Source: Haloquadratum walsbyi J07HQW1
Lineage (GTDB): Archaea > Halobacteriota > Halobacteria > Halobacteriales > Haloferacaceae
Length of the DNA: 64,000 nucleotides
Direction: 5' to 3'
NCBI GenBank assembly: GCA_000415965.1
Contig: KE356560.1
Location: forward strand, 3,218,201 to 3,282,200
Made by a program: the position numbers and the translations under genes. Of the stretch, positions 45,377-51,628 are shown piece after piece (position 1 is the stretch's first letter; each line of letters starts with the position of its first letter). The notes below the pieces were generated by a model, which saw only the letters and a list, made by a program, of their open reading frames with translations, did not search any database and was not told the DNA's origin.

Positions 45377-45910
45377 CATCCTCCTCCGCCTGAAGGCGGG
45401 AGGAATCCCACGGCACCGTACCGCTGGGTTGGGAATTTCAGGTTTGGGTTCGCAGACTCCCAAGCCACCACACCGTTCGAATCGGTGTGGGGCCGATCGA
45501 TGGGTAGTCTCCTGGGAGTGCCACATCTCAGCTCTAGCTTCAGCTTCCGCCCCCGGGACTCCTCTCGTTTGTCAGAGTCGGACGCCCACGCCCAGAGTTG
45601 GTTGTGCCTCGGGGCGCTCCGACAGACTCAGACTTCAGCGGACACGGACTCGGAGTTACTTTCACTGCGAGCTTCGCCCAGTGCTTGTTGTTTGATTCCC
45701 ACAGAGGGCACACCCTGTTTCCAAAGTGGGCGGACACTCATACTCGAACCGCCAGTTTCAGGCGCTCGGCTACACTGGGGTCGTAACCACTGCGCACATG
45801 ACATTCACATATGCGCTGTTTTTGGAGAAAACTGTGTGGAATTACCACTGTGACGGCGCGTATCCACGCCGTGCGTGGGATTGCGCCTGCTCCGCCTATA
45901 AATCCGCAAG
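45374..45910 (-). mobile_element. Non-autonomous TnpB-derived element, copy 3
   Basis: Begins TGACATCCTCC at 45374 with a hairpin (CCTCCGCC-TGAA-GGCGGGAGG, 45383-45403), then AATCCCACGGCACCG. TnpB-like tail codons are readable on the minus strand near 45430-45560. The right part matches copy 2 (39.6-40.1 kb) and ends GCGCCTGCTCCGCCTATAAA near 45902. Copies 1-3 all have the same orientation. The first bases supply the arcS stop. Confidence 0.6.
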
Positions 45911-45984: not shown

Positions 45985-46392
45985 ATGTCCGCAGATGACA
46001 CCACTACTGGCTCAATCGACCTTGGCGTCCCCCGGCAGATTCTTGAGACGCTTCCCGAGGATGGGCAGACAGCCGAAGCAGATATGCAACAGGCAGTTGA
46101 TGGGCTGGAGCGAAGTCTCCGAGCATCATTCGAGACCGCAGAGGACGACGCTGAGGCGGCTGCACATGCCGTCGATGCAATCGAACGGCTCGAAGAGCGT
46201 ATGGAAACATATGATGCATTCGTGCCCGAATTGCGAGCATGGGGTCAATCACCAATCTATGCAATCGCATGGCGGAATCTATATGCTGACCTCATCGCAC
46301 AGATTCATGATCACGAATGGCTCGCAACGCATATTGACCGCGAACGAAACTATCGACTCGTTGAGGATGGCATTCGGTTTGGTAAGCAGTAG
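45985..46392 (+). CDS. Conserved haloarchaeal protein, mostly helical
   Basis: A 135-residue very acidic protein, almost entirely helical by its pattern. MSADDTTTGSIDLGVPRQIL begins it, followed by long amphipathic helices (SFETAEDDAEAAAHAVDAIE, RLEERMETYDAFVPEL). It ends with IHDHEWLATHIDRERNYRL and GIRFGKQ. The ATG at 45985 is preferred over an upstream ATG at 45958 because the extra residues look non-coding. Not recognised as a named family; function unknown. The gap after it (46393-46814, 422 bases) holds no gene I can support. Confidence 0.7.
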   Translation: MSADDTTTGSIDLGVPRQILETLPEDGQTAEADMQQAVDGLERSLRASFETAEDDAEAAAHAVDAIERLEERMETYDAFVPELRAWGQSPIYAIAWRNLYADLIAQIHDHEWLATHIDRERNYRLVEDGIRFGKQ

Positions 46393-46814: not shown

Positions 46815-47249
46815 ATGACGCGTCAACGTGAACTTGCCCTTACACTCCGGTTTTTCGCTACCTTTCGCGATGCTGTTGGGACAAAAACGATTGACCGCGA
46901 ATATGACGCGACCACGGTTGGGGAGGTTCTAACAGCGATTGAGTCTGAATTTGATGACTTATCAGGTGAAATCATTGCCGACGATGCTGTTCGTCCACAG
47001 GTGAATGTCCTGCTCAATGGACGAGATATCGATCATGAATCAGGTATCGAAACGCCGGTTAATTCGAATGATACAGTGAGTATATTTCCACCGGTCGCAG
47101 GCGGAGCGCCGGCGTGTGTGTCTGCCCAGTCGAATATACAAACACAGACACAATTACAATTACAATTTCAATTTGATTTTGATCTCGTCACTGAGGGATT
47201 ACACGTTCGTCACAGTGAACAGAACATACATAATGGAGACAACCAATGA
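46815..47249 (+). CDS. MoaD/SAMP-type ubiquitin-like protein with C-terminal extension
   Basis: Residues about 8-97 are a beta-grasp MoaD/ThiS-type domain (LTLRFFATFRDAVGTKTIDR, VRPQVNVLLNGRDIDHESG) and reach FPPVAGG at 91-97. Sulfur carriers and haloarchaeal SAMP modifiers normally stop at that Gly-Gly so that it can be adenylated. Here the frame continues for 47 residues, including NIQTQTQLQLQFQFDFDL from a hexamer-like microsatellite (47145-47182). A 4-base overlap joins it to the next gene. Activity would need processing after Gly97; otherwise this copy may have lost carrier function. A sequencing artefact cannot be excluded. Confidence 0.75.
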   Translation: MTRQRELALTLRFFATFRDAVGTKTIDREYDATTVGEVLTAIESEFDDLSGEIIADDAVRPQVNVLLNGRDIDHESGIETPVNSNDTVSIFPPVAGGAPACVSAQSNIQTQTQLQLQFQFDFDLVTEGLHVRHSEQNIHNGDNQ

Positions 47250-47623
47250 GCGATGCACATTCAACTGATGATACTCGCACTGAGAGATCCGCTGACAACA
47301 CCGAGCGCGTCGGGACTGAGTCTAGTGCTGATGATGCCGACATGGATGCTGTGTCTGATATCGATATTGTCACAGTCGAACGCTCATATCGTGGGATTTC
47401 GGTACGACTTGCACGACACTATCTTGAGAAACTTGGTGGCGAGGTAGTTGATACAAATAATATTCAGGCTGAGTCATGGAGTGCGACACTTTCGGCTGAG
47501 ACGGTGGGTGTTGGTCCAACGCTTGAGCTGACAGAAGTGACGGTTGCATTCACAGGCAGCCAGGATGCATTGGACACACTCATTGATCGTTTCTCACAGA
47601 AGGCGATGCGAGCAGGTGGATAA
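47246..47623 (+). CDS. Small acidic protein ending in Gly-Gly (MoaD-related C-terminal-domain-like)
   Basis: A 125-residue protein with an acidic, Ser/Thr-rich N-terminal 45 residues. A compact domain follows (VERSYRGISVRLARHYLEKL, then WSATLSAETVGVGPTLELTE), and the end is RFSQKAMRAGG. The pattern resembles a domain that follows MoaD in some archaeal and bacterial proteins (DUF1952-like, from memory), here as a separate gene overlapping the MoaD-like one by 4 bases. The terminal Gly-Gly is what the preceding protein lacks. Whether it is a modifier itself is untested. Confidence 0.65.
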   Translation: MSDAHSTDDTRTERSADNTERVGTESSADDADMDAVSDIDIVTVERSYRGISVRLARHYLEKLGGEVVDTNNIQAESWSATLSAETVGVGPTLELTEVTVAFTGSQDALDTLIDRFSQKAMRAGG

Positions 47624-47626
47624 ATT

Positions 47627-48028
47627 GTGACGCCGGCATCAGATTCTGAGTCAATCACTATTCCGCTTGACCAGAGCGCAATCGTATATGCGAGTGCAAC
47701 GGGGAGTATCCAACCTGCTCGGATCGGACCACTTCTTCGTCAAGCGCAAGCATACCTATGCCAGTTATATGATGAGTATCAACGGCAGTATGAGTGTACT
47801 ATTGAAACGGATGGTCGAGCAATCTTTCTCGTTCCTGCTGGGCACTGGACGACGCTGGCGGACGAAATCGGGTGTTCCTCACGAGCCATCGATGCAATCG
47901 CACGTGCTCATGCCGAACAACTTCGTCGCCTTGGTCGACAGACAGACAGACGTGATGAATTTGAAACAGCGCTGGAGATTCGAGACGCAATCGTGATTGG
48001 GACGGACACATTAGATAATAACCCGTAA
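47627..48028 (+). CDS. Conserved haloarchaeal protein of unknown function
   Basis: A 133-residue soluble acidic protein beginning at GTG 47627 (MTPASDSESITIPLDQSAIV), 3 bases after the preceding stop, so it is the third gene of an operon with the MoaD-like pair. It has a helix-rich middle (PLLRQAQAYLCQLYDEYQRQ) and helix pairs at the end (AIDAIARAHAEQLRRLGRQT). No motif was recognised. Context suggests a link to sulfur transfer or ubiquitin-like modification. Confidence 0.6.
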   Translation: MTPASDSESITIPLDQSAIVYASATGSIQPARIGPLLRQAQAYLCQLYDEYQRQYECTIETDGRAIFLVPAGHWTTLADEIGCSSRAIDAIARAHAEQLRRLGRQTDRRDEFETALEIRDAIVIGTDTLDNNP

Positions 48029-49529: not shown

Positions 49530-49640
49530 ATTGATATTCTTCCGCGCCTGAAGACGCCCCCAGAAATCGGCGATTTCTGGTGTGCGAACGATACCCTCGG
49601 TCTCGTCAACGCGGGAATCCCACGGCACCGCACCGCTGGG
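49530..49640 (-). other. Right end of the tnpB element (hairpin and conserved end)
   Basis: Downstream of the tnpB stop (lower coordinates) lie ATTCTTCCGCGCCTGAAGAC and AATCCCACGGCACCGCACCG, related to the ends of the non-autonomous elements at 39637 and 45374. In active elements this region forms the 3' part of the guide RNA, and the guide would be the flanking DNA just beyond it. The exact boundary is not determinable here. Confidence 0.4.
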
Positions 49641-49648
49641 TTGGGGTA

Positions 49649-51053
49649 TTACGGTTTGCAGTCTCCCACCTCTGTCCGAGGTTGGAATCCTCGGGAGAGG
49701 TCATGAAGGGAGACTCCAGGCTGTGCCAACCAGCCGGGACTCCTATCTTCACCCAAACTGGGCGAAGACTCAGAGTTACTTTCTGTGTTATTGATGTCGA
49801 GACGGATGTTCTCGGCCCCATTCACGTCAGCGTTGAACGCATCCCCGTCGCCGTCGCCGTGCCGTGTTCCTCACACACGTACAAGCCGCGTTCAACACGC
49901 TGACTGTCGTCTTCCCTACCGCAGACGCAACACGTTTTACTCGTGTCGCGCTCTGACACTTCTCCGACTTCGATGCCCTCAACCTTCGCTTTATATTCGA
50001 GGATGTTCGTGAATCGGTTGAATGCCCACCCGTGCAGGTCGAGGTTGCCGTTGCGACCCCAGTTCTTCGACTCACCGTTACCGTTATTATCTTCGCGGAC
50101 ATCAGCGAGTTTTCCGATGTTGATGCGCCCAACACCGTTCTCTATACATCGCTCAACGATGTGTGTCGCCAAGGAGTGGAAGAAGTGGGTTCGGCGCTCC
50201 GACCACTTCGCATGGAGCCGAGTGGCCCTTTCACCACCTGAATCATCGCAGTTGGCGATTTCTTTCGGGAAGCAGTAGCCGTCCTGCTTCAGGCGATTGC
50301 CGGGGTAAAGGTCGGCTTGCTCGGTGCTGTACGCAACAGCGACAGCGGCGAAGTTACAGATGCCGAACCGAGGTCGATGCCAGCCGTCTCGGTGCCGGGT
50401 GCGGTGGGTGTCTCGATTTCGTCTTTGCAGACGAGGTGTAGTTCCCATCGTCCCCTTTTGTTGTTGTAGACTACTCTGACCTGTTGCAGGTTCTCGACGG
50501 TAACGCCGGGGCGCATCTCGTATTCGACAAGGATATATTCCCATGCTTTGGGGTGTTCGTTGTGGTTCGCGCCTTCTGAGAGTCGAACGCGGTTGTTCTT
50601 GGTGTCATGTTTGATGCCGTTCTGCTTCCACGTCACGGTTGAACGCGGGTGTTCTTCGTGGACGCGACGCCCCTGTTGGTCGAAGTAGTTTTTCTTGCGG
50701 TAGCCGGGCGGATTCGCTCGACTGTCAGACTTCCTCGTTTCGTCCCACGAGTTGAAGGCTTCAGCGAGTTCCGCAAGAACGCGCTGACTGGACTGGCTGT
50801 GCAGTCCCTTGTACTTAGGGTGAATCTTCAACTCATCTTTGAGGTCGCCGTGGTCGGGAATCTTGTCCGTTTTCTCCCAGACTTGTCGGGAGTGATAGTT
50901 GGTGATGTCGTGGGACTATGTCTCACGGGCTCTCAGACGGAGTCTGAGAACGTTCCAGAGTTTGCTGGCTGACCATCCGTGCCGGTCGGGCGGGTCCTCT
51001 ACCTGTCCGTGGTTGCGGATTTTCGCTCGGTGGGTGCGATGGACTTTCAGCAT
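49649..51053 (-). pseudogene. IS1341-type tnpB with several frameshifts
   Basis: Starting at ATG 51053 (MLKVHRTHRAKIRNHGQVED, SASKLWNV), the frame is soon lost. It resumes as HSRQVWEKTDKIPDHGDLKD and IHPKYKGLHSQSSQRVLAEL through the DNA-recognition half, with a further break near AGIDLG at about 50335. RuvC-I (AGIDLGICNFAAVAV), RINIGKLADVRED, and the zinc finger with RuvC-III (CCVCGREDDSQRVERGLYVC, then ADVNGAENIRLD) are readable in shifted frames, as is the tail PRTEVGDCKP and stop at 49651-49649. No tnpA accompanies it. A relic of a TnpB type different from the one at 26.4 kb. Confidence 0.85.
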
Positions 51054-51518: not shown

Positions 51519-51548
51519 ATTGTAATTGTAATTGTAATTGTAATTGTA
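51519..51548. repeat. (TGTAAT)n hexanucleotide tract
   Basis: Four or more TGTAAT units in the gap before the second CPBP gene, about 80 bases upstream of its start. The rest of the gap (51189-51628) shows no gene. Confidence 0.8.
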
Positions 51549-51628
51549 TACCACGATGATGCGGGGATCGTCTCAGGATCGACAGATGGCAACTGATATT
51601 CGAGTTGATACGCAATAATTCATAAGAG

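Follow-up and report, generated by a model that had tools for sequence, protein, structure and literature searches.

The SAMPs described in the literature that we searched have a free diglycine end. HVO_2177 of Haloferax volcanii, the protein now called SAMP3 (PMC4500146), is clean-ended and is conjugated via its terminal Gly (PMC7305310, PMC4500146), and in Haloferax it is dispensable for DMSO reductase activity (PMC4443979). Residues beyond the diglycine are found where MoaD is fused to MoaE, and these fusions are cut: HvJAMM1 cleaves a SAMP1-MoaE linear fusion exactly after Gly-Gly and thereby restores molybdopterin (MPT) synthase in vivo (PMC4443979), MoaX needs a cut after Gly82 (PMC4326299), and DRJAMM cuts MoaD-MoaE (PMC8832034). 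A second kind of diglycine protein, arCOG06308, is described in the accessible part of a 2010 paper by Makarova and Koonin (PMC2948915) as a protein with a TBP-like fold and a C-terminal GG that occurs only in Halobacteria, and whose gene adjoins a MoaD gene and two small ones, and it is proposed there to be ubiquitin-like in action and non-beta-grasp in fold. Our literature search returned no mention of arCOG06308 outside PMC2948915.

The window analyzed here, a stretch of 64,000 nucleotides from Haloquadratum walsbyi J07HQW1, carries two overlapping genes that recall both descriptions. Gene 1 (46815-47249, + strand) encodes 144 amino acids and has a TGA stop. Its MoaD/ThiS beta-grasp domain (46815..47105, +) runs to FPPVAGG at residues 91-97, and this motif marks the family's end, since the matches to Pfam ThiS PF02597 (residues 12-97, E=9e-16) and NCBIfam SAMP1 (residues 10-97, E=4e-26) both stop at residue 97. 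A tail of 47 residues and the TGA follow (47106..47249, +), leaving the translation without a free C-terminal Gly-Gly. The original prediction had described just this, a ubiquitin-like domain that continues past FPPVAGG for 47 low-complexity residues, together with a next gene that overlaps by 4 bases and ends in MRAGG, and both observations were borne out: the start/stop overlap is an ATGA (47246..47249, +), and the 125 amino acids of gene 2 (47246-47623, +) end in KAMRAGG. Judged by sequence, gene 1 is an orthologue of Haloferax SAMP3. Its best PDB match is 2m19 (E=2.5e-25, 92.4 bits), which the PDB names as HVO_2177, and the match to the SAMP1 structure 3po0 is weaker (E=2.6e-5, 27.7 bits). 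Because of the 47 residues beyond Gly97, we file gene 1 as a tailed orthologue and candidate precursor, not as a mature SAMP. Two further proteins of this type are encoded in the genome. One is a clean-ended SAMP-like paralogue of 103 amino acids with FPPVTGG (L002:1477-1788, +), which has a TETEAEAKAETELATD insertion inside its domain that resembles a hexamer-repeat expansion. The other is a third ThiS-like protein of 131 amino acids (L158:1477-1872, -, equal to G000:C1:1224379-1224771) that runs past its Gly-Gly, FPAMRGG being followed by SGHTITKCL. Its two nearest relatives have similar tails of 9-10 residues (SDHTVTRYD and SGCTVTKYDS), so the tail of this protein is itself conserved.

Among relatives, it is common for the diglycine to be covered, and even for the two proteins to be fused. 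Among distinct loci with gene 2 adjacent, MoaD was tailed in 41, clean-ended in 32 and fused to gene 2 in one frame in 9; where gene 2 lay about 1 kilobase away, MoaD was clean in 27 of 29 loci and tailed in 2. An overlapping start was found in 34/41 tailed but only 3/32 clean adjacent pairs (Fisher p=1e-10, relatedness ignored, as in all of our sequence counts across relatives, which carry no phylogenetic correction), and some tailed copies (7 of the 41 adjacent ones) do not overlap the next gene. FPPVAGG was invariant in 126 of 126 scorable MoaD sequences, tailed and fused ones included, in a collection for which the motif was not required (128 were scanned, and in the 2 unscorable ones the frame from the match start stopped after three residues). 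If covering the diglycine had abolished its use, some tailed or fused lineages would be expected to have lost FPPVAGG, and this invariance is our main argument for processing. On this sequence evidence, the diglycine of gene 1 seems to be still under selection. Against processing, FPPVAGG could be retained for folding or docking and not as a free terminus.

The reading that we favor, with a probability of roughly 0.6, is that gene 1 is made as a translationally coupled, tailed precursor whose tail is cut off by a JAMM protease before E1 activation. The gene 1 product would be a SAMP3-type ubiquitin-like precursor with its Gly-Gly covered, and the tail would be the consequence of a stop codon placed further downstream, where it overlaps gene 2's start. 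In-frame repeat expansion, in a genome low in GC and rich in hexamers, would have lengthened the tail. A JAMM/MPN+ metalloprotease would cut after Gly97, and the freed diglycine would be adenylated by a UbaA-type E1 for sulfur transfer or conjugation. The gene 2 product would be a standing partner of TBP-like type that carries an invariant C-terminal AGG of its own and corresponds to the second domain in the MoaD-TBP-like single chain of Thermus 1V8C and some haloarchaea. The genome encodes one clear ThiF/E1 (E=9e-82), a MoaE and two JAMM proteins that carry HSHPNGxLxPSxxD motifs. No protease gene lies beside the MoaD/TBP-like pair, which counts against this reading. Of the three explanations originally offered for the covered diglycine, removal of the tail by a protease appears the best supported, favored as it is by the invariance of FPPVAGG in tailed and fused forms, the two JAMM genes and the HvJAMM1 precedent (PMC4443979). 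Trimming by a JAMM protease would be the likeliest explanation of why the motif is kept in these forms. We infer the JAMM cutting of the window's tail from the described fusions; the translational coupling, the identity of the cutting protease and what the partner does biochemically are likewise predicted.

Gene 2 has its domain at about 47375-47620, after a variable N-terminal linker. It matched no Pfam or NCBIfam family above the cut-off, the matches to DUF5376 and PI4K_N being below it and without support from the fold. A search of PDB sequences with the gene 2 profile found nothing, and the relation to Thermus 1V8C came only from structure and profile comparison. The AF2 model, built with 26 aligned relatives, has a pLDDT of 93.8, and its best Foldseek match in the PDB was 1v8c (prob 1.00, TMq 0.81, E=1.6e-4), two chains of which were the sole significant matches (the next had E=0.06). 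The profile of gene 2 aligns end to end with the C-terminal domain of 1V8C, last Gly-Gly included (P=2e-5). The PF09189 (DUF1952) profile, positive on the Thermus control, had no match in the window's genome. On structure and profile alignment, gene 2 is thus homologous to DUF1952 yet lies outside the Pfam family as defined, and its modeled fold fits a TBP-like protein of the arCOG06308 type. Matches to gene 2 were found in 61 of 394 genomes of the phylum, all within the window's order, and most loci have a MoaD neighbor.

In 119 of 119 distinct sequences, the C-terminus of gene 2 is KA[MVI]RAGG followed by a stop. The original prediction had suggested that the carrier function moved from gene 1 to this second protein, and we reject this, as the terminal AGG is equally invariant beside MoaDs with a free, clean-ended Gly-Gly and is therefore no replacement for a lost one. 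A different possibility, compatible with precursor trimming and to be held only tentatively, is that the TBP-like protein is a second, non-beta-grasp carrier or modifier that is E1-activated like a SAMP, making two diglycine tags. It draws on the strict conservation of the C-terminus, on the Gly-Gly-Gly end of the Thermus homologue (the one sequence from which a terminal Gly-Gly of bacterial DUF1952 proteins is known here) and on the proposal for arCOG06308, made on similar grounds in the accessible part of PMC2948915. However, the whole case is one of sequence conservation, the conserved residues lie where a long helix ends and might serve for interaction, as a tail that fits into the pocket of an enzyme, and our literature search found no conjugate reported for an arCOG06308-type TBP-like protein. 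The partner probably binds SAMP3 or the target of SAMP3, and we predict that its terminal AGG works as an insertion tail or else as a second end that is activated.

The SAMP3-type gene and its TBP-like partner occur together or not at all among 60 genomes: all 41 genomes with gene 2 have a close MoaD (E<=1e-19 in 40, and 2e-14 for a split copy in the other), and in the 19 that lack gene 2 no MoaD scores better than 4e-15. Natural MoaD-TBP-like fusions are present at nine haloarchaeal loci. The sequence of 1V8C, checked residue by residue in the PDB chain, has a MoaD part to FPPVAGG followed by a second domain ending in SRGGG, and the haloarchaeal fusions are thus built like the Thermus protein. 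A model of a haloarchaeal fusion matched 1V8C over the full length (34% over 168 columns). Its pTM of 0.51 leaves the domain arrangement uncertain, and the pLDDT falls below 50 only at the internal Gly-Gly (residues 90-92), which in this model is consistent with an exposed linker. In one haloarchaeal fusion (L054, genome G047), the linker is only a few residues long (VAGGCEDVVERSFRG), near the Thermus layout VAGGGFERTFG. No function was reported for the Thermus 1V8C protein in the literature searched, and the plasmid collection held no 1V8C-like two-domain protein.

The strict co-occurrence and the occasional fusion would also fit a tail that stays on, with the tailed protein acting noncovalently with its TBP-like partner, as in the fusions, while other SAMPs, such as the FPPVTGG paralogue, do the covalent or sulfur carrier work. 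The genome does have this clean-ended paralogue of 103 amino acids, and Haloferax SAMP3 is unnecessary for DMSO reductase activity (PMC4443979). We nonetheless find this rather unlikely: FPPVAGG is invariant in the tailed and fused forms, conjugation of the clean-ended Haloferax SAMP3 uses its terminal Gly (PMC7305310, PMC4500146), and the partner also adjoins clean-ended SAMP3. Less probable still, in our view, is that a two-domain precursor with a diglycine per domain was ancestral to SAMP3 and the TBP-like protein, with JAMM cutting at the inner Gly-Gly and E1 activating both products, which would make a modifier or sulfur carrier pair, one member of it not ubiquitin-like in fold, common to Thermus and haloarchaea.

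The tail itself has counterparts in the Halobellus-type relatives, which belong to the same GTDB genus as the window genome. MoaD is tailed in 12 of the 12 whose locus was read, by 4-27 residues (AGNA, TRAGA, APGRAR, ARGGVP, TRGDAR and two of 27 residues), and in Halobellus relatives the stop of MoaD and the start of the next gene overlap in an ATGA or GTGA. Of what the original prediction wanted from orthologues, the presence of a tail was found in these relatives, but not the conservation of its sequence. At the DNA level, the tail edges read GGA GCG CCG ... CAATGAGCGATGC in the window and GGC GCT CCG ... CGATGAGCGACGC in one relative (G010); the window retains the two edges, with about 41 added codons between them. 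The added part contains an array of the hexamer ACAATT (47150..47173, +), and the repeat recurs inverted at 51519-51550, 4 kb from the tail array. The window holds 8 exact tracts of period 6 that span at least 18 nt, against a mean of 0.0 in 10 Markov simulations. To judge by sequence, the window's tail looks like an in-frame hexamer-repeat expansion of a short Halobellus tail with the ATGA overlap retained. Such an expansion preserves both frame and overlap, so the low-complexity sequence can be explained without any function of the tail.

Two small genes flank the pair, one upstream (45985..46392, +), present in the flank of 61/80 named relatives, and one downstream with a GTG start (47627..48028, +), present in 73/80 and, in the listed loci, immediately following gene 2. 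They are likely arCOG06307 and arCOG06309, one each, matched by description. A direct repeat of 45 nt (45402-45446 and 49614-49658, 87% identical) flanks the module and possibly represents mobile element remnants, and broken-looking pieces of an IS605-type OrfB/TnpB transposase in overlapping frames lie at 49822-50831 on the - strand (OrfB_IS605 E=4e-19, Cas12f1-like TNB domain). In G012 and G009, Haloquadratum-type relatives that are the window's two nearest complete relatives, the module between arcS and azlC is absent, and it is hence dispensable in this lineage; its loss as a block supports a joint function. What is left in G012 is a shortened arcS together with fragments of the downstream gene. 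At this locus (L208, 8501 bases), on a Haloquadratum walsbyi-like chromosome, arcS matches over its first 90 residues only, with a stop in frame, and the archaeosine synthase may be broken.

The loss of the module from these two relatives, with its remnants in one of them, and the partly hexamer-repeat tail allow the reading that a recent stop loss and repeat expansion inactivated the window's SAMP3 copy and that the module is heading for loss. The long, repeat-derived tail might indeed mean that this copy is in a recent decaying state, an argument against processing here. We regard inactivation as improbable. Tails are shared with Halobellus, and the window retains intact reading frames, the ATGA overlap and every residue that is invariant in the family. 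The identity between the window and Halobellus is 66-73% for the MoaD domain and 62-70% for domain 2, similar to the 65-70% of the neighboring arcS, and so gives no sign of relaxed selection or decay. The earlier proposal that a stop loss kept the coupling at the cost of activity therefore holds for its first half, in that tails go with overlaps, but not for its second, as there is neither motif erosion nor faster divergence. MoaDs that stop right at Gly-Gly, which the original prediction had set, with a frameshift, against a genuine extension, do exist in many other genera, but the Halobellus-type relatives whose locus was read are all tailed and no error is needed. That an assembly or sequencing error produced the tail is extremely improbable, despite an assembly completeness of 89.6% and simple repeats in the region: that independent genomes have tails at this position, and that the tail ends exactly at an ATGA overlap which relatives share, both argue against such an error or frameshift as its origin, and domain, tail and next gene join without a frameshift.

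If it is true that many haloarchaea make a tailed or fused SAMP3, precursor processing like that of eukaryotic ubiquitin is part of how the haloarchaeal system works, and an unstudied protein, itself ending in an invariant Gly-Gly, is the standing partner of SAMP3. Judging by close relatives, the partner gene is expected directly downstream of samp3 in Haloferax volcanii, and both points are testable there.

Compared with the known systems, SAMP3 of Haloferax volcanii (HVO_2177; 2M19) is the closest characterized protein to gene 1 by sequence and has the identical FPPVAGG, but it ends at Gly-Gly, whereas the window protein is 47 residues longer; the 97-99% identical copies of Haloferax SAMP3 within its genus (L160-L172) also have the TBP-like gene directly downstream. 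MoaX and the other JAMM-cut MoaD-MoaE fusions share with gene 1 the residues beyond the MoaD diglycine, and in those proteins removal after Gly-Gly is required for activity. Extra residues after the diglycine and JAMM genes in the genome are the features of a JAMM-processed MoaD precursor that are present here. What follows the diglycine is MoaE there, but in gene 1 it is a tail and in the haloarchaeal fusions it is a TBP-like domain. Gene 2 fits every point given for arCOG06308 in the accessible part of PMC2948915, its membership being matched by description, but that part of the paper makes no mention of tails on the MoaD partner or of MoaD-TBP-like fusions. The MoaD-related protein 1V8C of Thermus thermophilus (PF09189, DUF1952 C-terminal domain) is the top structural match of both gene 2 and a haloarchaeal fusion and likewise joins a MoaD part with FPPVAGG to a TBP-like domain with a GG end; it is one polypeptide, whereas the window has two genes, and gene 2 is too distant for the PF09189 profile. 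The MoaD/TBP-like pair forms a module that is widely conserved and in places naturally fused, and a Thermus protein whose structure has been solved is its counterpart. The individual parts of the module were already known; what is new is the form with a buried diglycine, along with the fusions and the strictness of the pairing.
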